From Branchiostoma floridae (lineage: Eukaryota; Chordata; Leptocardii; Amphioxiformes; Branchiostomatidae), in the NCBI RefSeq assembly GCF_000003815.2, contig NC_049981.1, positions 31,436,836 through 31,500,835 of the forward strand: a DNA stretch of 64,000 nucleotides, given 5' to 3'. The notes below the pieces were generated by a model. It had not been told where the DNA came from, searched no databases, and was given only the letters and a program-made list of their open reading frames with translations. Made by a program: the position numbers and the translations under genes. Shown piece by piece: positions 33 to 56,354 of this stretch. Numbering within the stretch: the stretch's first letter is position 1; every line of letters begins with the position of its first letter.

Positions 33-146
33 CTAAAAGAAGAACGTTTCCAAGAAAACGTAGAAAACAAAACCCAAGATGGCGATGATCAGGAAGTTGA
101 TCGTCAGTAGCTGGACCTGTTGGATGGTCTGCTTGTCTAATTCCAT
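33..146 (-). CDS. Phospholamban/sarcolipin-like membrane micropeptide, copy 1
   Basis: A single-exon 37-residue reading frame. The ATG at 146 has a strong Kozak context (AACACCATGG) and the stop is TAG at 33-35. Residues 1-12 are polar (MELDKQTIQQVQ); residues 13-32 form one hydrophobic span (LLTINFLIIAILGFVFYVFL); the tail is ETFFF. The I-N-F of residues 16-18 aligns with I33-N34-F35 of phospholamban, and Gln12 and Leu14 align with Gln29 and Leu31. Asn34 is known to matter for SERCA binding, and sarcolipin also carries N-F here. Inferred role: SERCA regulator in muscle or ER membrane. The RRxS phosphorylation segment of phospholamban is absent, so the architecture is closer to sarcolipin. 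Against copy 2 there are 8 synonymous and 4 replacement codons, which indicates selection on the protein. It could be an unrelated small membrane protein; homology rests on motif reading only. Confidence 0.7.
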   Translation of the reverse strand: MELDKQTIQQVQLLTINFLIIAILGFVFYVFLETFFF

Positions 147-2616
147 GGTGTTTTCTTTTGGGTGGGTTTTGGTATTCTCAGTCCACTTCTCTTAACTTGA
201 TGCCTTCGGGTCAGTGAGTTAACCACTGCTCCAAGGAAGACTTCTCGTAGCCTACTTTTATGTCATCACACACAAAGAGCATAACATGTTCACAACAGTT
301 CACGAAAACTAACAAATTCTTGGCTTGAATTGGGATGCGTATAGGTTCCACATTGGAAAAATAGACTTTTAAGTACTTGTTTGCTTTTGTTGTCTCAATT
401 CAAGCCACCAAACATACGAGAAACACATACAAAATATGAAAAGGTCTGTCGGAGCTTCAGTCGAGTCGTTGAAGCGGTGCTGTCGATACAGCGGTGAATG
501 AAGTGGCAGATCGAGCGAGGCCGCGGCCGTCGGCAAGCCGTGAAAATGTTATCTACCAGGGTTGGACAGGTTTTCTAAAATTCACTTGTCCTATCAGACA
601 AGCACACAAAAAATTTTACTTGCCCGAACTAATTTTTGACTTGCCCAAAATTGAAATGTCAACGTTATATACATTTTCACCTCCAGCAATGGAATTCTTA
701 TTATTGCCTCTGTTTCTCTATGTTGGCCATTGCTTGATATCATGACTGCAAAAAGTATATAAAATCGCACTGGACATAGAGCTAGTGGACTTGTCCAACC
801 TTGTCTACATAAAAACGTATGATTTGCAAAAGCACGAAAACCTTGATGCTGCGGGCGAATCTGATACATGGCATGGAAAAATAGAAACGACAGCGATATC
901 ATTATGCTGTGACACTCGAGTATGGACACTCGAGTGGAAGGACTGCAAGAGAAGCCAGTACAGTTTACTGTGATGCAAGGGGATCCCAACCACAAGGAAC
1001 ACATAAAGAAGCAATGGTCTGCGTCAAGCTCCGTTTGGAATTGTATCTACAGGTTTCTTCGTGAAAACTTTCGGTATCATACTCTGTTAACGTTGGTACT
1101 ACATGAAGTGTTGGCATATCAGTTCATTTAGAATCAGCAGAGTCTGGATATCTTTAAGTAGTCTTTCGGCAATCATGATGTTACCAATCACATGCTGAAA
1201 TTTAAATTGCAATTATTAGACCTTTTTTATATTGAAATGCTGGGCCAAAATAAGTGTCTATCTAATATGTAGATGTACTCTTTTTTTTTATTCAGTCAAA
1301 TTATTCAGAAAACCGTACAGTATTTCTATAACAGTTCTGAAAATGCGAGTTTAATAGTTTTTTCAACATACTGATTTGTTAGTATTTCCTGATTCTAACA
1401 TATAACATGCGTTCATAAATTCTGAAGAGGGTTTGCCTGATCGTATCCTTTGACTTGACGTGGTTTTTAGCTCTGTAGGTATGTAGGTATGTGTAAATAG
1501 TAAAGTTACGTAGATTTAACCGACATCAAGTCGTACAACATTAACCTGGAATCCAGGCTGTTCCCAGGGCCCACAAAGGCTAGCCTCCACCAGACTTTTC
1601 TCCGGGGGTACGGGGATGATAGAATTAGGCAAAAAATCCCGAAATTGGCCAGGGTAGTCAGTTCACGCTAAGGTACTAGTAAATCTTTACTGGTCCCTGC
1701 AGCAGGCCAAATCGTCTGGTGGCAAAACTCCCATGGCAAATTATTATCTGTGTAATAACCAGCATAGTCAGTCTGGTAAAGACAACTTAAAGGTCAGCTC
1801 TTCTGCACGGCCATCTGGTCTAGCATAATCCCAAGGAAATGTTACTTCAACTTTCATTGAACCGGGTTATTGACTAAATTATCGTAACGAGCGTAGTTGG
1901 TCAGACGTGTATAGAATTTTACAGTGCCAACTAATCTCAGCCTACAGCCCTGGGAGAGACTTGGACTCGTTTTTTTTTCATACATGCAACAACAAGGAAG
2001 AGACGGAAACCAACGAACAAACAAGCTTTAATCACAACTCTGATGGAAATGTGTAAAAGAATGCATGACTAGTTTGTATTGCGTGAATTTCAGATATGTA
2101 GATAATCTGTGTTTTGCTGTCTGGTCATGTAAGGGCAATAACAATGTAGCAGTCTCAGGACATCCGGGTATCCTGATATGGATGCTGAATACTAGCTGGA
2201 GGTCATGCTTTTGTGGTGAACAGTATTTCTTCGATCTTTCTTCTGACTACAGCATGCTTTTGACTACAGGCCGTAGCATTCGTTTGTGTGCAGCGTTCTA
2301 TACGAAAATTACTTTTATAGGCACATCCACGGGAGTGCCTCGTTCATAAGGCCACCTCTTGAATTATGCGCAATCTCTTTTCGACCAGCAGTAGGTTGCT
2401 ATTGGCAACAGGTGCTCATAGATATGTTCTTTTTTCTATAATTACATGCTTGTACTACATTGTATTAGTCTAAACTACTAGGGGCTGCAAGAGGTTTCCA
2501 TGTATCACATCTTTCCAGTTACATATGTACATGTATCACACTGGACAAGTAAGCAGTTTCTTACAATCACAAGGTGTATGCTACTAAGACATCTTGCTTC
2601 AGTAAGACAACGGACA
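147..2616. other. Intergenic region between micropeptide copies 1 and 2
   Basis: No gene supported. The first 150 bases, upstream of copy 1, share short blocks with the region upstream of copy 2 (TGCCTTCGGGT near 200 and ATCACACACAAAGA near 266), candidate promoter or 5' leader. A small inverted-repeat transposon lies at 1579-1783. The remainder is AT-rich and unrecognised; short open frames in it show no family resemblance. Confidence 0.5.
1579..1783. mobile_element. MITE, family 'CTAGCCTCCACCAG'
   Basis: Begins GCTAGCCTCCACCAGAC and ends GTCTGGTAAAGAC, an imperfect terminal inverted repeat. A second copy in opposite orientation lies at 60990-61172 (starting TAGTCTCTACCAGAC, ending TGGAGGCTAGTCTG), with internal sequence alignable over most of its length. 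A truncated copy is at 49341-49395. It is non-coding and so a non-autonomous DNA transposon. Confidence 0.65.
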
Positions 2617-2730
2617 CTAAAAGAAGAACGTCTCCAAGAAAACGTAGAACACAAAGCACAAGATGGCGATGATGAGGAAGTTGATCACCAGTAGTTGGAC
2701 CTGTTGAAGGGTTTCTTTATCCAGCTCCAT
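2617..2730 (-). CDS. Phospholamban/sarcolipin-like membrane micropeptide, copy 2
   Basis: Single-exon, 37 residues, ATG at 2730 (context TAAACCATGG) and TAG stop at 2617-2619. N-terminus MELDKETLQQVQ, one membrane span from about residue 13 to 32 (LLVINFLIIAILCFVFYVFL), tail ETFFF as in copies 1 and 3. It differs from copy 1 at Q6E, I8L, T15V and G25C; the Cys at 25 lies where phospholamban also has a Cys/Leu-rich face. The 3' flank is near-identical to copy 1 and short blocks upstream are also shared (about 2775-2790 and 2830-2860), so the duplication included flanking DNA. Inferred to sit in the sarco/endoplasmic reticulum membrane and bind SERCA. No second coding exon is needed: start and stop lie in one open frame. 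Confidence 0.7.
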   Translation of the reverse strand: MELDKETLQQVQLLVINFLIIAILCFVFYVFLETFFF

Positions 2731-3366
2731 GGTTTAGACGTTACTTAATGTTCTTATTCGCGATTCTTGCTGCCTTCGGGTAAGAAGGTCTTGTCTGGGG
2801 TCTTGCCCGCTTGCAACCAGCGTGCTTGATATTATCACACACAAAGATCATAACATAACATTGGCGAAATATGTAGACAACATAAGTCGTAGAAGTGGGA
2901 AGTAAAGAGTGACTTTTCAATTTCAAAAATTGATACTTTCTTCTCGACAAAAAATGGCAGATACGCTCTTGGATGTCCCACCTCAAGCCACAGTATAGAA
3001 GATACGTCACGAGACAGACTATCGGGTCTGACGTCTGCACGTTGCTGTGAAGTCAGCAATGATGGTGTGTTCTTGCCGTTACGTCAGCAATGATGTCATG
3101 GTTCTTGAGCGTGAAAATTTCTCGGGTATGGAGTCGGTGCGCGTAGCTAAGGTCATGGCAGGCTAAATGCCTAAGTTATTGTTAATTGAAAATCTTTGCT
3201 GTTTACATGTTGTTGATGGTATTTGTTTAAAGCTTCTGGGTAAAGAGTATTGAAAGCCGCAGATTGGCGATATGCTGCATTCCAGGTGAAAGAAATAAAC
3301 TGAAACTAAAGCTTTGGAATCTCCAATTCTCTGAAAAAAGGAGTCGTTCATAGCGCGAAAATGTTC

Positions 3367-3525
3367 ATCTCCAAGCAGATCCTACGGTGCCCTAAGATAG
3401 TATCAAAGCTTGCCAAGGAGTATAGACGGCCAAAGGGAGTCAGACGGGCACTGAAGGTGCACACTCCTAGGCCGGCTTCACTACTCTGCCAGCTTTTGCT
3501 ACGATAGGATCTGCTTGGAGATTAG
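3367..3525. mobile_element. MITE, family 'CTCCAAGCAGATCCTAC'
   Basis: Terminal inverted repeats start TCTCCAAGCAGATCCTACGG and end GGATCTGCTTGGAGATTAG. The internal arms (near ATAGTATCAAAGCT and AGCTTTTGCTACGATA) are also complementary, so the element can fold. Relatives in this window are at 7708-7909, 39035-39121, 43302-43337 (one end only), 44914-44968 (one end) and 62154-62317 (diverged). This is the most frequent transposon family here. Confidence 0.75.
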
Positions 3526-3744
3526 AAAACTTTAGCTGCGTGTGCATGTGGATGAAGCTTGAGACAACACCTGACAGTGTGTAAAAGCTCCTGGAAGCTT
3601 AAAGTGAGAGCTTCATTTGTAAAAGCGCGAAAATGTCGAGGCAGATGACGTGAAAACGACCCCTAGCGACTACAGAGCGTCATGAGGCTGTGCATATGTG
3701 TCGCGATGCACGTAGCATGACCAGGGCCGAAAGTATTAAAAAAG

Positions 3745-3990
3745 ATCAACTGCAAATATGGAAATATTATGATATTATGAAATGATGATTAGATATCAAC
3801 TGAAAAAGATGTGATTATGATATTATAATTAGATAACGTCATAATCAGCTATGAACAGATATTACGTGAATATCACGATATCGTAATCGAAGATCAACTG
3901 AAAATATGTGACTACATTGATATTAATAACTAGTTTAGTGAATATCAACTGAAAATTAGTGAATTTATGTGAATTTTTCCGCAAAAAGCT
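3745..3990. repeat. Degenerate AT-rich tandem repeat
   Basis: About four diverged units of roughly 55 bases, each containing ATCAACTGAAAA followed by an AT-rich stretch with GATATTA. The period is read by eye. Confidence 0.4.
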
Positions 3991-5191
3991 AAGAAGTGAT
4001 ATTATGTAAAAAGAATCCCGGGGGTCGACGACTTAACAATGGATTAATGCAACATCAAATTTCCATATATTTAAACAGATTTCACATTCATGCGACTGTT
4101 AATTATCTAATCTAGTAAGGTTTAGTTAGAATCAAACTCGTGGAAGTTTCACAGGTGCAAACTAGTTACCACATTGATAATAGTAACGAAAAATAAAAAG
4201 TTAAGAAAAACATCTATCATTTGGGACGTCTTGCCTTGCATACGATTTTACCTATGAAGAGATCATTGTAAATTTCATACTGTAACTGTAGTTATTGAGA
4301 CTTATGGCTAATGCGGCTATGCTACACTAGAATAGGTCGAAAAACTGTCTGCTTATCATTCAGTACAAATGTAGGTGGTTCTATATTTTAAAGCCTTGAG
4401 TAACCCCTCTTTTCAACGGATATATAAATCATAAGATCACTAAAGCCTGGTTAAGTACTCCAGAAATGCTCTCAGCTACACCGGGTAATGAAATAAAGTA
4501 GCAAAATTCCGCTGGGAATTGCATGAGGCAAAGCCCAATGCTGTTATGTCATACAGCTGTGAACAGCACGTGGACAGCACGTGATTGAAGCCGTCAAGCT
4601 GGAGGTATTGTTGTACAGTAAAACATAAAACGTCACATATAACATGGCGTCAGGACGAAATCAACAGGAATGCAGCCTAACAACCTATGTTGCATATTTT
4701 TTCTACGCATAGATATTGCAGAACATATATACGGTAAAATTGACGGGACTGGAACTATATAGAAATTAATATTTGGATGCAATCTTTGACTATCAAGAAG
4801 AATACCCAGCTTCACCAAAGTAGCCCAGGTCGTCACCTACCTTAAATCAAGGGCAATGCCTCTCTGTGTCGTCACTTCCGGTTGTCAGTGGCCACAGCCC
4901 CTGTGAGGGACAAGCATGGGCGGATGGAACATTCCTGTGCCATATTTGGAATCTACATATTTTGTTGATTTGGATTGATACTTGTTATCGAGGAAACTGT
5001 TTGACAATGTTTTGCCCTTCAGTAAGCTACATGAGATATCAAGAGATATTCCATTTCTGTAGGGGCAATCAATGAATGTATGCCAAAAAGTAGTTACTCA
5101 AGCAACTGGATATGATTTTGAAAACGCTCAGACGTTTCAAATAGTATCCACTATCCATTTGTGAAGATTAGACATCCAGGTATCGTTAACA

Positions 5192-5298
5192 TTGAAGAAG
5201 AATCAATCTTTACTTCTGGATACTTTATTTTTTTTTTTTTAAATAATAAATAAAATAAATAATAAAGTATCCAGAAGTAAAGATTGATTCTTCTTCAA
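5192..5298. repeat. Perfect 38-bp inverted repeat (hairpin)
   Basis: The left arm, TTGAAGAAGAATCAATC onward, is repeated as its exact reverse complement at the right, ending GATTGATTCTTCTTCAA. The arms are about 38 bases around an A/T-rich loop with a T tract. No element body is present; this is a small fold-back repeat. Confidence 0.8.
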
Positions 5299-6397
5299 AG
5301 TATCCACTATCTTTCGTCAGTGACACTGAAGTAATTTGGAAGGAACTGGTCTTTTACACCCTAACTATGAATGAAGATAATTTTAGATGTCCAATAGGAG
5401 ATATTGTAAGACAATGGCCATCAATCAACGAATGAAGTAAATAAATGAAATGAATCGCATGATTGTTCATCAGGATCATCAGACCATCAAAGCTACCACT
5501 TTAAAACGTTGATTTCCTTGTAAACCATTGTGTATGTTTGCGCTAAAGAATCATCCACGTTTGCACCGTGTGCTGAGTCTACACTGGATACCACATGCAC
5601 CAAAGCTATTCTAAGCTACCATGAACATCTGATATGACAGCTCTGCCTATGTCGGTCCCCCATGTGTCCATGTGTACTGTGTAAATGTACATGTATGTAC
5701 TTTAGTTTACACACATCCGGCTGTAGTGTAGATATGGACTAGGAATTAACCATTGTCTGTACGGACGGATGCCAAGGAGGTTTGCTCAGTAAACAGAGAG
5801 ACAAGAAGGAGGCATGATATTAATAATTCTTGTAATTTTCATATTCATTTTATTCTCCTTTACAGTCTGTGCTCAGGAAATTTATGCAATCAATTCAAAA
5901 AGACATGAACAGCCCCAACATCATATGTACCAATCTCAATGAAGCACAATAATTGTAAAGCCCATCTATAGCAAAATCATTTGATAAATTCGTGGCCTCT
6001 TCACTCAGTGCGAACTACTATACGATCTATTTGAAGAAACACTTTCAAATCCACGCAGGTCTAGCCTGGATGCCAGACTGTTTTCAGGGCCTAATGAGTT
6101 ACACAGGTTGTACTTATAAACAAATTACGCTGCTATTTTCGACAAAAATAACTCAATACACCCTTGAGCCATATCTACTCCGTGATTCTACTCTGTGATA
6201 GCCTGTTGGTCAGCTGTGGTGCGTTGTAGCTGGCCACCTGTGGTATGAATGGTCATCAATCATAGGTTCTCTTTCTACAGCTCGAGATCCTTTCTACAGC
6301 CATCTGGCCAGACCCCTACACGGTGGATGCCATTGAGATCGTGCTGGGGGGGGGGGGTCTAGAATCCAGGCTAACACAGGTGGGTATGACTGTTCTA

Positions 6398-6617
6398 AGG
6401 CTTAGGTCCCATCGATCCTAGGTCCTACCCGGGCCCGGCTTGGATGTTTAGGGAAACGAAAAATGAAACTGTGGAAACGAAAAATGAAAAGGGATATACA
6501 TAAATTATACTCATGACTAATTTAAAAAAAAGTTCTGCGTGTTTTGTTGCCTTTCTTATTTTTCGTTTCCGAAAGCTACCCGGACGGGTCCCGGGTTGGG
6601 AATCGGGACCTAAGCCT
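6398..6617. mobile_element. MITE with AGGCTTAGGTCCC inverted termini
   Basis: Starts AGGCTTAGGTCCC and ends GGGACCTAAGCCT, a 13-bp perfect terminal inverted repeat, with GC-rich subterminal sequence around CCCGGGCC and CCCGGG. Lies 57 bases 3' of micropeptide copy 3. Related GGGACCTAAGCC-type sequence recurs near 33520 and 36690. Confidence 0.6.
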
Positions 6618-6673
6618 AATATAGGCAACTGCTTATTCATCACAACCGTGCATGGCATGTCATACTTTGTGCT

Positions 6674-6787
6674 CTAGAAGAAAAACGTCTCGAAGAAAAC
6701 AATGCAGACGATACACAAGACTGCGATGATGAGGAAGTTGATGACCAGAAGCTGGACCTGTCGGATGGTCTCTGGCTCTATCTCCAT
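6674..6787 (-). CDS. Phospholamban/sarcolipin-like membrane micropeptide, copy 3
   Basis: Single-exon, 37 residues, ATG at 6787 (context CAACGATGG), TAG at 6674-6676. This is the most diverged of the three: N-terminus MEIEPETIRQVQ, span LLVINFLIIAVLCIVCIVFF, tail ETFFF. It looks most like phospholamban, with C25 and C28 in an Ile/Val/Leu-rich span, Arg9-Gln10 before it, and the shared Q-x-L-L-V-I-N-F core. Relative to copy 2 the third codon positions are changed at many sites while the core Q-V-Q-L-L-V-I-N-F-L-I-I-A is unchanged, the pattern expected of a translated, constrained peptide. Upstream DNA is not recognisably similar to that of copies 1 and 2, so this duplication is older. Confidence 0.7.
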   Translation of the reverse strand: MEIEPETIRQVQLLVINFLIIAVLCIVCIVFFETFFF

Positions 6788-17900: not shown

Positions 17901-20443
17901 TTGAGGTTAGAATTGTCATCTCCATGAAAATATGAGATTATATAATTGTTGTGTGCGTGTGTGTATCTGTGTGTTTGTGGATTGTAGTCAGCATAATTCA
18001 AGAAGCTATCGATGTATTCCGGTGATATTTGGTATGTAGGTAGGTTGGTCATACAATTTGTTATTGTGAATGAAGGCAAATCATCTGCAAAACACCTGCC
18101 TCCGTTGATATGTGTGCACGTAAACACCCGTATGGTCCACCGTACCATTGAACTTTAAACTCTTTGGTTAGTGTCGACGCCGCCGCTTTAGCTGAGGGGG
18201 AGGATTGTTTGTACAGCCTGTTTGCCTAGTACGTTCACGGTGACAGCAATTTAAGGCAACTATTCTTGGTAACAATCATGGTATTCTAGAATATATAAAG
18301 AAAGCTCCAACAGTGGTCTTTGTCTTGTCTTTTGCAAGTGACAGCTGTAACACAATGATGTCTCTATTATAAATCCCTCCCTAACCCTACCCCCAACTCT
18401 GATATAGGGACGTCGGGAACGATGGGGCATTGGAACATAAGGCTATTCCTCGAGTATATTTAAAAAAAACAACTGAACTTTCATGTCCTTGTTGGGAGGG
18501 TTGCTGTCTCAGAACCTGGAGGTACTGAGTTCGAATCATAGACAGGTAACGATGCTGTGCTCACGAGGAAAGGCACTTTACATCAGTTTACTCACTCGTG
18601 TCAGGTTTACATGAGTTGCTAGCTTCACCTAGGGACGTCCCACGGATAGAACGTTAGATTGAGGTCCTCTGTTTTAAGTACAGCGACAGCTACGAGCACG
18701 TTGAAGAATGCTCTTATTGGAAAGCTGGGGTCCATCCCGGTGTGATTGGATCTAACAATCTGTTCGGATATATAGCTTGTACTTCTCTCTCTAAAGGTCG
18801 GCCCAGGCCACTTCGGGCTGTTGATCCTGTCGTCCTCGTATAGAATAATCATTGTGGTACATCTAACATTGAACTTCAGACTGTTGTGTGGGTTTACAAC
18901 ATATCGACAATGATTATTTGGGGGTGGGGGGCTAATTGAGATCTTTATTTTGCATGTTGTTGCCCACATGGGCTAAATGCAGTGATTTGATAGTAATTAC
19001 ATGAAGTACTAAAGAGGGTCTGCATGCCTTTTTCCGTTAAGCGTTACGAGCCATTTTAATTCACCGTTAATCGTTACCGACCCGCTCTAATTCAACGTTA
19101 ATCGTTATCGGTATATTCTTCGTGAAGCGTTATTGGTCGTTTTAATTCAACGTTAATCGTTATCTGTTACCCCGAATTCACCGTTAAGCGTTACCAAGAA
19201 ATTCTTCGTAATCCGTTAGACTATACACACGAAGTATAATGCCAGGTAGAACCCCTGAAAATGCAGGAAAGGGCGTTTCAAAGGGTCCAGATTTCAAAAT
19301 TTCTCCTGGCCTTCGGCTCTGAACATGGTAAAATATGCTGCGGAAGCGTCGCCCTCAAAACTTTATCACGCATACAGATTTCAGTGTCAAACATAGCTTA
19401 GTTTCGGGCAAAAAGTTCTCCTAGAATGCGGAAAATGAGGTTTCTCCGGACCTCCATTGCGACGGCTTGCGCCTTTGGCGCTCACGACGACATGGCGAAA
19501 ATATGTTAGGGGCGTGGGTTTGCGCCCCCCCCCCCCCCCCAAAAAAAATTTTCTCTCTAATAAAATGTCATTTAATTTAATTTAGCTTCGTCTTACGGCA
19601 AAATTTGTCCTTCAAAATGCAGTAAATGGCGTTTCAGACGGTCCAGATTTTAACATTTTCCCGGACTTTCCCGGACTTATATTGCAACGTCTCGTGCCTT
19701 CCGAGCTCGACATGGTCAAAATATGTCGGGGGCTCTGGGGGTGGAGGCCAAAGCTACGAGTATAATCATGTGTAATTTAAAGAAAAGGTCAAAATCAACT
19801 TAGCTTAGTCGGTCGGCAAAATTTGCCGAAAATGTAGGAAATAGCATTTAAGAGGGTCTTGATTTTAAAATTTTGCTGCCGCCGTCTCTGTGGCGGCCCG
19901 GGAACTCTGCCTCCGTCAATTTACAGATGTCATGGACATTGTCCCTGTCATTCCTCGGGTTCTTGGCACCTTTTGCTTTTCACAATGTATTTTCACCCAT
20001 TTATATAACTACTCTAGCGTTGTATGAATAGGAATGCACGCCAAAGTTACTGTTAAGTTTTGCAACTCATTCTAAATTTACCGTTAAGCGTTACCGGGCC
20101 TCCTGAATTTACCGTTAAACGTTACCGGGCTTCTTGAATTCACCGTTAAGCGTTACCAAGACCCCCCCATGCAGACCCTCACTAAAGACTGTAAGGCCTC
20201 TCACATGTGATGCAATTTTGTATGATATTATAAGCATGTTCCGTATGTGTTGACGCAGTTGAGGATCTTGTACTTGCATGTTGACACAATAAATGCCGCA
20301 AACTTACTTTCCTTCAGCTTAGCCCAGGAGGGGCGGTCGATCCTGTAGTCCTCATACTGCACACCGGCGGCGGCGAAGATCAGCCTGGTCAGCTCTCCGC
20401 GCGCGCGCAGGTCGAAATATGTCAGCTTGTACTTGGGAGCCAT
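14967..20443 (-). CDS. GST-A: sigma-class glutathione S-transferase (HPGDS-like)
   Basis: Five coding exons: 20308-20443, 17732-17824, 16881-16996, 15618-15713 and 14967-15131 (606 nt, 201 residues), all with GT-AG borders. It conjugates glutathione to electrophiles or isomerises prostaglandin H2 in the cytosol, as known for the class. Exons 1-2 form the thioredoxin-like N-domain: start [10 protein letters not shown] with catalytic Tyr9, Arg15, Trp40, cis-Pro53 in MGQMP, and Gln64-Ser65. Exons 3-5 form the helical C-domain: [18 protein letters not shown] in exon 3, [14 protein letters not shown] in exon 4, [14 protein letters not shown] in exon 5, ending RPESDI. No frameshift or stop. Intron 1 is about 2.5 kb and contains repeats; intron 2 shares a tandemly repeated block with GST-B. 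Which sigma activity it has cannot be told from sequence. Confidence 0.95.
18490..18620 (+). repeat. tRNA-derived SINE fragment
   Basis: Contains a B-box-like ACTGAGTTCGAATCATAG followed by TGCTCACGAGGAAAGGCACT, the arrangement seen in the better preserved SINE at 43950-44160. Lies in GST-A intron 1. Not a functional tRNA: no acceptor stem is evident. Confidence 0.5.
19015..20179. mobile_element. DNA transposon remnant with CGTTAAGCGTTACC subterminal repeats
   Basis: Starts AGGGTCTGCATG and ends CATGCAGACCCT. The flanks are TACTAAAG (19007-19014) and CACTAAAG (20180-20187), an 8-bp duplication with one mismatch, as in hAT elements. Both ends carry clustered copies of a unit like CACCGTTAAGCGTTACC (about 19036-19220 and 20080-20160), orientation-matched subterminal repeats. 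The interior repeats a segment around AAAATGCAGGAAAGGGCGTT three times and has no open transposase frame. Inserted in GST-A intron 1. A reverse-orientation relative of the interior lies at about 23870-24010. Confidence 0.65.
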
Positions 20444-21534
20444 GATGGTGCAGTCGTCACAGAACAGGAACCAGCGCGGAACAATCGTCTTTCGTTGTGT
20501 CTTGTGACAAGAGGAGTGTTTTTGTCCAGTGCAGACAAGCTGACACAACAACTTATGGATTATTACATTGAGTTCTGAGGGGGCGCCTTTAATAAGATAT
20601 CAGCCAATCTAGCAGTAGTCTGTGCAATGATAGATGTACATCGAACCATGGTATGTTTCCTTGTACAAAATTGTAGTTCAGACAAGCTTACATAAGTTTT
20701 TCTGCGCTCTCTGTGCCATTTAAAACTTCACCGTTATCAGAATGTTACCATTCTACCCCTTGTTCTTGAGACTCCATCTAATGGTCCGTGCGAAACCATT
20801 TATAAGTCATCCATCTATAAACCAGACGAATAACAACCTGTTAATGTTTGAAAAGGCTATGCTATTTCTGTAATTAAGGAAAAGGTCGAAGACCAAAGTC
20901 AACTACTACACGCGCCCACACAGCCACGAGCTCAACCCGTACGCAGTCTGGACTGTTTATTGTTCGGGGCAGGGCTGATGGATTGACCCCCTAACCCCGA
21001 GATCGTGGATTCATGAGTTTCACGGCCGTGGAATTCCTCACCTTTGGTGATGGTGGAACTTATACTAGTCTAAAGCTATGGAAATCATCAACTAAGTGAC
21101 GAAATTCAACGTTAGGGTTAGGTTAGCGTCTTGGACCGTTAACCCAAACCCCTTAGTTAGGTCCCTAACCCTAACCCCATTGCCGCCAATGCAAGAGATG
21201 AGTGCATGCATGTCCTTCCATAGCCTCGAAACTCAGCAATCATCAGACTTCGGTAAATAAGTCTAATTACGATTTAATGGAAAACTCTGTAACTTCGTCT
21301 ACACATGTTTTAAGAACAGAGAAGAAGCATGTAAATTATAGTATATCTATAGCTTTTCGTTTACTCCCTTTCTACCAAACTGACTTCCAATGGGCATGGA
21401 TATGCAATAAACTTCATTGTCATTGTCATTGTCATTGATAATAGCTCGATTGCCTGTGACAACAGCAACCAGGGGGTAAGAAATCAAGTATCCATTTGCA
21501 TTAGATTTGCAACAGAATAAAGGACTACAAAACA
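20444..21534. other. GST-A upstream region and A-B spacer
   Basis: The GST-A promoter must lie here. TGACACAAC at 20541-20549 sits where other copies have an antioxidant-response-like TGACACAGC but lacks the G, and no convincing TATA box is present. GAGGGGGCGCCTTTAAT near 20577 resembles the AGGGGCGTCTTTGAT upstream of GST-B. A SINE/LINE-like 3' end with AATAAA and a (CATTGT) tail is at about 21407-21437. Nothing else recognised. Confidence 0.4.
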
Positions 21535-49753: not shown

Positions 49754-51919
49754 TCAGAAGTCGAACATCCCTGCGGGACGCTCGGCCATCCACTTGGCGA
49801 TGCGCGGGTTGGCCTTGACCGTGTCGCACACCTTGGTCAGTTTGGGGTAGTCCTGCATGGTTCCCGCTTTGTAAACCTCCTCGATGTTATGCGCGATGTT
49901 AAATAACACCAGGTCGCACCACAGAAGCTAGAAAGAAATGCAGAAAAGGTTAGCGTTATTCTGAACCACTGCTGCTGATTTGGTTTGACGTTATCTTCCT
50001 CGATACCTTTCACCCTGGTATTAATATCTACTGCACGCCGCATTTCTGCAATAATTTATTGCAGAATTCAAACAAAGTAGCCCTGCGAGTTCGTGTTTCA
50101 AACTATTTCAACGATACACACTTTTTCTTTCTCAAAACGTAATGTCAAACACATATGTCCTTCCTTCCTTCCTTCCTTCCTTCATTCAATTCTTTGGTTG
50201 TACTCACGCTGTTGCCCACTAGATGTCCGTCAGACCCGCTCAGCTTCTCACACTTGCCGAGTCTCTCTGCGATCAACTTATCCAACTCCTTCGACTTTTC
50301 CTCCTAAAATAGCAAAATGAGAGCATGGAAGTAAAGAAATTCAGTCAAAGGACTGCGTTCAGCTATTTGGTACCATTACAATATCATTGTTTATTCACAT
50401 TTCGCCCGCACCATAGCCCAGCAGAATACAAAACAAAGAAGAAAGAAAAAAACAGCACAACACAAATAAATCACCTTGTCTTTTTCATCCTTGGCGAATA
50501 CTACCACACCAGCCATTTTCGGTATCAGCTCCTCAAGCTCGTCTACAAAGGCGTCTGCCTGGGCCCGCTCTAGCCTGGTTTTACCGTCCAGTCCTACAGG
50601 AGTTGTAAATTGTTAAAGCCGCATTCATATTGTTTACGTCCCGCTATGGTAAGGACATGTGATGAGAGTCAGTTTGGTTTTACCGCCCATTCCTGCAGGA
50701 GTAGATGGAACAGACGCGCTCATACTCCGTGGACCACTCAACTTCCCTAGCGTTACATCACAAGGGGCGGCGAACACCAACATTCGAACACATTCCAGCA
50801 TGCTAGATTTGCGTTCGATCGAACGCATTCCAGACTTCGATCCTGCTAGATTTATGTTCTATAACTATGTTAGAACCACCGGATGCGTTCGAATGTGGGT
50901 GCAAATGACGCAGTCCCCCTTTTGTTACGCATGCAGATTCTTTAGCGGAGATACATTGTTTACGTCACGCTTCAGTAAGGTCACGTGATGTGAGTTACGA
51001 GTCAATCAACCTGCGTAAGGCTGGAGATTAGTACGAAAATTTGTCGAGTCATTTATAATCTGTTTTGCAAACAGTTCGCCGACAACAGGCCTACCCTTAC
51101 GCAAACCCCTTACAACAGCTGTTTGTGTAGCAATCAAAGTTAAACCCAGTGAACGCACTCACCCGTCTCCCTTGCAATGAAGCGAGCTATGGACATGCTC
51201 TGGCTGAGGGTGATCCCATCCACCTCGAGAATGGGCAGTACGCCCATCGGAGTGCCTGAAACATGGAGCATTCCTAGTATCTGCTGCATGGAGTAAGCAC
51301 TAGTTCTGTTGACTTTTGATGCCTTGTATCGTCATGAATCGGTTTGGTTGGAAAAGGCATATAGCCACGGTTGCCTCACTAGCCAGTCGAAAAGGGACTA
51401 CCGAATCGTTGGCAGGTCATTTCTGTTTGTTGTATGGGTTTTGATTTGACTTTATGCCAGGGCTTCCCAATTAGCCTCAGGCTATTATACAGTACAGGGC
51501 TAGCCCTGGTACCGCCGCTCAACAACATAAATGGTTACAATGCGTTTACAGATGGAGTTTGTTTATTCGTGCAATTACGTACTAAGTACAAAGTAAATCA
51601 GGGAAATAATTACTTAAAATACTAAGACGATCTGTGTTTACTTAGTAATACTAGCCTATCATGCGTGCTATATAACGAGCTTCAAAACGAGCATGAATTC
51701 TGTAACAATGTTATCCTAATTTCTTCTCACGTCTATTCACAAGGACCGTAACTTGAGCAAACATCACACATGCCACCACTCACTGTCTTTGTGTGCCGGC
51801 CACTGGTCGAATGTGATTCTCACATCCTCGTACTCAACCCCAGCAGCGGCGAATAGCAGCCTGGTCGGCTCACCGCGAGCTCGGACGTCAAAGTACGTCA
51901 GCTTGTACTTGGGCGCCAT
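49754..51919 (-). CDS. GST-G: sigma-class glutathione S-transferase
   Basis: Exons 51784-51919, 51163-51255, 50475-50593, 50208-50303 and 49754-49927 (618 nt, 205 residues). N-domain: [17 protein letters not shown] with Tyr9, Arg15 and Trp40. MGVLP replaces the usual MGQLP, and [10 protein letters not shown] has Ser in place of Cys before the Gln-Ser pair. C-domain: [33 protein letters not shown] and [16 protein letters not shown], ending ERPAGMFDF. Exon 5 is three codons longer than in A-F, and exon 3 one codon longer, both shared with GST-H. Exon 5 uses a TAG acceptor preceded by a pyrimidine tract. Confidence 0.95.
50158..50184. repeat. (TTCC)n microsatellite
   Basis: Six to seven TTCC units in GST-G intron 4, close to the exon 4 donor. 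Confidence 0.9.
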
Positions 51920-51970
51920 CCTGGGTCCTGTTTGGACGTTCTTGTGGCTAGCTAGCGGTGTCTCGATGCA

Positions 51971-52076
51971 GAACTGGAATGGGCGGTCCCTTATCTTCGA
52001 CAGGTGTAAATATGCCCGTGTGTGCCAACTGCGTCCGGGCATGGCACTTGTTTGAATGGGACGTACCATCAGAGAG
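51971..52076 (-). promoter_or_regulatory. GST-G promoter region
   Basis: A 45-base block at 51971-52015 (GAACTGGAATGGGCGGTCCC then TTATCTTCGACAGGTGTAAA) is identical in GST-H. It contains a GATA-type AGATAAG and a TATA-like ATATTTA at 52007-52013 in gene orientation, 91 bases before the ATG. Further up, CACTTGTTTGAATGGGACGT and ACCATCAGAGA (52045-52076) match the block of the other genes. The TGACACAGC element of E, F and I is absent. Confidence 0.5.
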
Positions 52077-52609
52077 GGTAGGACTCGCCACAGACAGTTA
52101 CATTGTAAATCTAGTGATACCAGGTGTCAAAGGTCACCGACCGACTGGATATGTCTAATGAATGGATTAACCTTTGATATGAATTTTAAGGAAATGCTTT
52201 ATACACGTCACAAAGAACACCGTGGCTATAAAAAAGTAAACCTACATAACCTATCTGAATTACAAATGCGTGATTGTAGCAATCTGTACTACGTATACTG
52301 CTGACCTAGCGGGGTCGGTTCAAAGTTTGAAGAAAAAGTGACACAAGGTGTATTCTAGTTGATATCAAATCGCGTAGGGAAGGGGTAATAAAGAGCGTAA
52401 CAGAAGAGTGTTCTCACATCGTAGTGTGTGTATAGAAGTCAACTTTTCCTACATACAGCATGGGAGGGTGGGTTTTGTAGTGTCCGTCATAAAGCTTTTA
52501 GATTATATAAGAAAGGAGTACACCACTCATTTATTCAATGATTTCTTCCTTCATACAGTTTTCCATACCGAAAAAGATGCACTTAAAACACTTGTTAAAA
52601 TGAAAAGCA

Positions 52610-52789: not shown

Positions 52790-56354
<3,565 letters not shown>

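Follow-up and report, generated by a model that had tools for sequence, protein, structure and literature searches.

At the left end of the window, a stretch of 64,000 nucleotides of Branchiostoma floridae (amphioxus) DNA (G000:C3:31436836-31500835), lie three members of an array of at least eight micropeptide genes. The array occupies 15.5 kb on the minus strand of contig C3 (G000:C3:31428081-31443622). Within the window, member C (copy 1) is found at positions 33..146, member B (copy 2) at 2617..2730 and member A (copy 3) at 6674..6787, all on the minus strand; each frame encodes Met plus 36 residues followed by a stop codon (MELDKQTIQQVQLLTINFLIIAILGFVFYVFLETFFF, MELDKETLQQVQLLVINFLIIAILCFVFYVFLETFFF and MEIEPETIRQVQLLVINFLIIAVLCIVCIVFFETFFF, respectively). 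Five further members, D, E, F, G and H, lie to the left of the window. The peptides are 37 residues long in A, B, C, D and F and 35 residues long in E, G and H. It is nearly certain that this family of micropeptides, with no fewer than eight copies in tandem, is real, apparently unannotated and under selection.

Copy number and conservation of the array

We searched the assembly (513,431,437 bases in 431 contigs) in six frames with the middle peptide. At least eight matches were obtained, all on the minus strand of C3 (31428084-31443622), with E values from 5.2e-9 to 1.8e-15. As eight candidates were scored in this search, eight copies is a lower bound. A motif scan over 50 kb gave the same eight members, and a profile built from them scored the members at 75.0-87.6 bits and the runner-up at 9.2 bits among all frames of at least 20 residues in 300 kb. 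Note that 21,542 of the 300,000 bases in the profile-scanned region are N, so that further copies could be hidden; to the left of member H, the sequence is interrupted by four runs of N of 436 to 10,018 bases. Members C, D and E are whole-unit duplicates with a unit of ~1.5 kb, the longest matched pieces having 84.5% (C-D) and 81.1% (D-E) identity. The first-pass annotation of this DNA had described three frames, at 33-146, 2617-2730 and 6674-6787, as a trio of single-exon genes expanded in tandem. These frames are present and read from the minus strand, stops occurring in copies 1 and 2 when they are read on the plus strand, and the tandem expansion was borne out; the number of copies was not, the family having at least eight members on one strand. 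The term single-exon applies to the coding part only.

Selection on the peptide, proposed earlier from the window copies, was evident across the array. Pooled over all 28 pairs of the eight members, the ratio of nonsynonymous to synonymous differences (pN/pS) was 0.26 for the last 33 codons. In 500 codon bootstraps this value ranged from 0.17 to 0.37 (2.5-97.5%) with a maximum of 0.44, which excludes chance frames. Copies 1 and 2 differ at 8 synonymous and 4 replacement codons, exactly as counted earlier, and the dN/dS check suggested for the three window copies gave ~0.07, 0.24 and 0.17 for the three pairs (NG86). Good Kozak contexts, likewise reported for the window copies, were seen by eye in all eight (A at -3 and G at +4 of the ATG).

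When the seven other members were compared with A, the frame match reached no further than 4 bases upstream of the ATG and 1 base downstream of the stop codon, with frame-to-frame identities of 72-79%; far upstream, A and B are additionally linked by two short matches. In other older pairs the matches begin near the ATG and may extend past the stop (B-D 186 bases, B-E ~80, F-H ~67). Members B and C have ~125 bases upstream in common.

We next consider related proteins. A collection of 5,772,631,384 proteins was searched with queries of at least 40 residues, candidates being limited to 0.55-1.75 times the query length. Member C, extended by the three in-frame codons that precede it, gave no candidate with three shared 5-residue words, and the eight-member alignment headed by this extended C gave 36 candidates, none at E ≤ 10. 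These length limits would hide a frame that had been annotated as part of a long protein. Human phospholamban returned 39 hits from the same database, nearly all of them named vertebrate phospholambans (from ncbi, uniref, nr, eukprot and other sources), indicating that the database does contain animal proteins. As far as visible within the length limits of the search, the genes are thus not annotated, and the array may show what annotation of a model chordate can miss.

Peptide features and comparison with known regulins

Residues are numbered as in member C. Invariant in all eight members are Thr7, Gln12, Leu14, Ile16, Asn17, Phe18 and Leu19 and, in the second half, Ile21, Leu24, Phe31, Glu33, Thr34, Phe36 and Phe37; the motif L-x-x-N-F is kept throughout. 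The core and the ETFFF tail, described at first pass as fixed, are so in the three window copies but not in the array (member G, NAQSLVINFLVIA; member H, ETVFF). AlphaFold2 predicted a single helix spanning residues 5-36 for the three window members, with a mean predicted local distance difference test score (pLDDT) of 93.7. The architecture is of the regulin type (35-37 residues, one C-terminal helix), hydrophobicity suggesting a membrane span. In the helix phase matching the phospholamban zipper, 30 of 32 cells hold Ile or Val, compared to 4, 8 and 1 of 32 in the other phases; as the eight members are related, this count is nearer to one observation than to eight. Thr7, though invariant, aligns with neither sarcolipin Thr5 nor phospholamban Ser16/Thr17, and no phosphorylation switch is therefore claimed. 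A toxin or secreted peptide was rejected on reading alone (acidic start, hydrophobic C-terminal part).

All eight members take the same best ungapped offset against human and catfish phospholamban, sarcolipin and sarcolamban B, as do five of eight against sarcolamban A, allowing for the N-terminus being two residues shorter in E, G and H. In this register, Asn17-Phe18 falls on phospholamban Asn34-Phe35, sarcolipin Asn11-Phe12 and sarcolamban B Thr10-Phe11; Asn-Phe at the head of the membrane helix, pointed out earlier for the window copies, is found in all eight members. Leu14 (-3) is aligned with Leu in human and catfish phospholamban, sarcolipin and sarcolambans A and B alike. Tyr29 (+12), replaced by Ile in member A alone, falls on catfish phospholamban Tyr46, sarcolipin Trp23 and Tyr22 of both sarcolambans.

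Phospholamban (PLN, PF04272) is resembled in the Asn-Phe heading the C-terminal membrane helix, Leu at -3, Gln at -5, Ile or Val before Asn, and an aliphatic face at the zipper positions. Moreover, Met1-Glu2 of the array peptide lies on catfish Met18-Glu19 (human Ile18-Glu19). In contrast to phospholamban, the array peptides have a C-terminal tail three residues longer and an aromatic-rich second half. The phospholamban phosphorylation domain is missing, as had been stated in the first-pass annotation: the peptide starts at the position of phospholamban residue 18. Since domain Ia comprises residues 1-17 in the available text of PMC8184213, the peptide corresponds to phospholamban minus domain Ia, hence without Ser16/Thr17.

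Sarcolipin (SLN, PF05366) shares Asn11-Phe12 and Trp23 in register, a short cytosolic part and aromatics in the luminal tail, but its tail is RSYQY where the array has ETFFF. Of the two Drosophila sarcolambans, A and B (PF21898), sarcolamban B has 11 identities in 29 ungapped positions with members B, C, D, E and G, its tail YAFYEAAF lying on YVFLETFF of the array (sarcolamban sequence from the accessible part of PMC9338278). It differs in carrying Thr10 where the array has Asn, and the array peptides have seven extra residues at the N-terminus. Sarcolamban B is the best-supported pairwise likeness, its helix and tail fitting the array at least as well as those of phospholamban; the likeness to sarcolamban A is much weaker. 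Myoregulin, DWORF, endoregulin and another-regulin (ALN) are also single-pass micropeptides acting on SERCA, according to the portion of PMC8396278 available to us. The first three gave no sequence signal with the array peptides, and ALN was marginal.

A phospholamban profile was built from the 39 phospholamban hits. The eight members scored 8.9-14.4 bits, compared to 20.8 for sarcolipin, 8.2 for sarcolamban A, 3.9 for sarcolamban B, 1.6 for myoregulin, -1.4 for DWORF, -2.8 for ALN and -2.7 for endoregulin. Among 5,000 shuffles preserving the hydropathy pattern, the score of the member was reached by 30 (A), 85 (B), 8 (C), 4 (D), 208 (E), 8 (F), 26 (G) and 37 (H); shuffling inside two segments gave 5-133 and full shuffling 0-11.

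For each of ten targets, pairwise likeness was measured by the ungapped BLOSUM62 score averaged over the eight members and compared to 20,000 pattern shuffles of the target. The true score was reached by 7 shuffles for sarcolamban B and by 17 for catfish phospholamban (chosen among the 39 for its Tyr46, which favors it), followed by human phospholamban (441), ALN (549), sarcolipin (849), coelacanth phospholamban (1,826; added afterwards), sarcolamban A (2,337), myoregulin (2,536), endoregulin (2,804) and DWORF (3,334). Reversed sequences scored below forward ones for sarcolamban B (24.5 vs 49.9), catfish phospholamban (37.9 vs 48.8) and human phospholamban (34.5 vs 39.9), and also for myoregulin, DWORF and ALN. 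Together, shuffling and reversal give a clear signal for two of the ten targets, sarcolamban B and catfish phospholamban, the remainder being weak.

In Pfam at E ≤ 10, Phospholamban was matched by seven of eight members (best E 0.0011), DUF4519 by five (best E 0.016), CoxIIa by two, and EVI2A and Orf78 by one each. Phospholamban was the best match for window copies 1 and 3 (E 0.027 and 0.033), all matches of window members being far under the curated cut-offs. As a yardstick, sarcolipin matched the Phospholamban model at E 0.0073 and phospholamban the Sarcolipin model at 0.034, while the matches listed for these two Pfam models included neither of the sarcolambans. Searches of the PDB returned nothing with a three-member profile and nothing with member C alone.

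A putative family of SERCA regulators

From these comparisons we estimate, at a probability of roughly two in three, that the array encodes C-tail-anchored SERCA regulators of the phospholamban/sarcolipin/sarcolamban kind that lack a phosphorylation domain. The case for this assignment is built on the common register together with the shuffling results. The first-pass annotation had likewise read the window copies as SERCA micropeptides; selection, tandem expansion, the Asn-Phe register and the missing phosphorylation domain agree with that reading, while formal Pfam membership does not (scores below cut-off).

Amphioxus SERCA was located at one place among the matches listed, C11:17.556-17.557 Mb (three matches at E ≤ 1e-5, seven candidates scored). 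Its M6 and M9 exons retain the rabbit groove residues Gly801, Leu802, Thr805 and Phe809 (M6) and Trp932 and Leu939 (M9). In the accessible sections of PMC8396278, Asn34 of phospholamban is reported to be essential for inhibition, with Thr805 of SERCA M6 as its partner, and inhibition by sarcolipin requires the luminal tail; PMC7583845, as far as available, gives Gly801 as the M6 partner of Asn34. Neprilysins cut the luminal ends of sarcolipin and sarcolambans (PMC9338278, available in part). The short N-terminus of the array peptides would point towards the cytosol and the helix would occupy the SERCA groove of M2, M6 and M9. There, Asn17 may play the role of phospholamban Asn34 against M6 (Gly801/Thr805), lowering the calcium affinity or rate of the pump, and the conserved luminal tail Y-x-F-L-E-T-F-F-F, acidic and aromatic in character, may anchor and tune the peptide, like the tails of sarcolipin and sarcolamban. 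As the absence of domain Ia means absence of the Ser16/Thr17 switch, control would be by other means. These could be dose (which of the eight genes is on), self-association via the aliphatic face (20/23/27/30), or proteolysis of the tail.

Several observations weigh against an assignment to SERCA regulators. At +12, human phospholamban has Cys46 and no aromatic residue. The window members reach 14.4, 13 and 14.1 bits, compared to a curated cut-off of 25 for PF04272; copy 2 fits DUF4519 (E 0.016) better than Phospholamban (0.075), and PF21898 Sarcolamban is absent from the five Pfam families listed for the eight members (E ≤ 10, filters on). In the PDB, the eight-member profile ranks photosystem II PsbT (E 0.079, 0.2) above phospholamban (2.6, 2.9), and thus profile scores alone cannot separate the family from other membrane helices. 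Reversed sequences scored higher than forward ones for coelacanth phospholamban (38.9 vs 34.8), sarcolipin (36.9 vs 32.2), sarcolamban A (32.1 vs 30.1) and endoregulin (32.2 vs 28.1). Human PLN and SLN lie in an SLC35F1/SLC35F2 neighborhood; tblastn with SLC35F2, RAB39A and ASF1A gave no hit at E ≤ 1 in C3:31.30-31.60 Mb. SERCA M6 is widely conserved in animals, and its presence in amphioxus therefore discriminates little. The SERCA-touching phospholamban residues given in the available part of PMC7583845 map to columns 14, 17, 21, 25, 31 and 32, of which four of six are invariant compared to 10 of 22 overall, an enrichment that is not significant (P 0.23).

Part of this could be accounted for if the peptides served another membrane partner, such as a pump, a channel or a complex of the endoplasmic reticulum or mitochondria, and the likeness reflected convergence of short hydrophobic helices. 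DUF4519 (5/8) and CoxIIa (2/8) indeed score near Phospholamban for the window members, PsbT stands above phospholamban in the PDB, and some reversed controls beat the true sequences. We nevertheless consider another partner unlikely: sarcolamban B and catfish phospholamban are clear of 20,000 hydropathy-preserving shuffles, the Asn/Thr-Phe register repeats in phospholamban, sarcolipin and sarcolamban B, and myoregulin, DWORF and endoregulin are without such a signal. The peptides might also be SERCA regulators by function that arose independently of the phospholamban/sarcolipin or sarcolamban genes, which we judge to be improbable, at about one chance in a handful. Independent origin has been considered for other regulins, and it would suit the modest sequence scores and the lack of shared synteny seen in 300 kb. 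SERCA is also a target of myoregulin and DWORF despite hardly any sequence likeness (PMC8396278, in the portion available). However, the likeness of the array peptides to phospholamban exceeds that of myoregulin, DWORF, endoregulin and ALN, and it runs ungapped from the N-terminus to the tail.

It is far less credible that the frames are non-genes (chance frames or transposon debris), or that unmerged haplotypes in the assembly have inflated the copy number. The spacing of the whole-unit duplicates C, D and E (~1.5 kb), the N runs left of H and the failure to find a homologous protein would be compatible with such an explanation, but the pN/pS value and a similarity to A that is essentially confined to the frame speak against non-genes. 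As to haplotypes, the C-D and D-E copies lie in tandem on one 34 Mb contig and are seemingly too diverged for alleles.

Returning to a SERCA regulator of the phospholamban/sarcolipin/sarcolamban kind, the resemblance is more likely to stem from shared ancestry with phospholamban/sarcolipin and the sarcolambans of arthropods, though this is not proved. More tentatively, and with somewhat less than an even chance, the array may represent the cephalochordate branch of one bilaterian SERCA-regulator family that bridges the phospholamban/sarcolipin and sarcolamban groups. The peptides would then combine a phospholamban-like front, [MI]-E-x(9)-Q-x-L-x-[IV]-N-F, with a back resembling sarcolamban B, F-L-I-x-A-x-L-x-F-x-x-Y-x-F-x-E-x-x-F, a pattern seen in members B, C, D and E. 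If so, the phospholamban phosphorylation domain would be a vertebrate addition ahead of the ancestral start Met, and amphioxus would instead regulate SERCA through at least eight tandem genes that lack such a switch and are controlled by dose.

Regulins set the speed of muscle relaxation and are known in vertebrates and insects. The two groups share few residues, so that it is mostly function that connects them. A set from an invertebrate chordate that combines traits of both would give an idea of the possible form of the ancestral peptide. It would also point to the phospholamban phosphorylation switch having been added to an unswitched inhibitor. In the literature searched, with most subscription journals outside coverage, no amphioxus regulin was among the matches listed and no paper contained both 'phospholamban' and 'amphioxus'. 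To our knowledge, an eight-gene array of one regulin has not been described; what is new here is the sequence itself, its arrangement in eight genes and the combination of features.

Flanking and neighboring sequence

Upstream of member C, an ATAAAAG motif (255..261, minus strand) lies 115 bases before the ATG and is a weak candidate promoter signal. It recurs upstream of D (-139) and E (-133), with a background of 0.127 per 600 bases on both strands; because C, D and E are whole-unit duplicates, the three occurrences are one observation, and a TATA-like role is speculative. No MEF2 or CArG consensus was found within 600 bases upstream of any of the eight members, and E-boxes in the same intervals totaled 12 versus ~14 expected (background 1.75 per 600 bases). 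Plausible 3' splice sites, identified by reading, are present only upstream of G (-51) and H (-15, -129). Vertebrate PLN and SLN genes have an upstream non-coding exon, and the array members may have one as well. Within 800 bases downstream, AATAAA occurs only in D and E, and ATTAAA in B, C, D, E and F.

The interval between members B and A contains an inverted repeat (window 5189-5238 / 5252-5301) with 50-base arms that are 94% complementary and 13 bases apart. Two foldback elements, at window 3367-3384/3505-3522 (18-base arms) and 7708-7737/7880-7909 (30-base arms), have similar ends (..ATCTCCAAG[CA]AGATCCTA../..TAGGATCTGCTTGGAGAT..) and are probably copies of one small mobile element.

Over the rest of the window, glutathione S-transferase-like genes look like a tandem cluster. 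First exons of this type lie on the minus strand at 51767-52126, 56059-56346 and 20228-20599, the last identified by eye. PF02798 GST_N was matched by two of five window frames (E 4.5e-5, 1.3e-4); two further window frames were without a Pfam match.

Outside the window, the C-terminal domain of a histidine N-acetyltransferase (PF24066, E 1.6e-12; L022:7972-8598, plus strand) lies ~40 kb left of the array, and left of this frame is a reverse transcriptase frame (PF00078, E 3.4e-38; L014:6284-8023, plus strand). Just right of the window sits a 1,011-residue frame that contains leucine-rich repeats (PF13855, E 4.6e-64) as well as immunoglobulin domains (PF13927, E 1.6e-19; L024:3069-6101, minus strand). 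A kringle domain (PF00051, E 3e-12; L031:8829-9578, minus strand) is also found to the right of the window.

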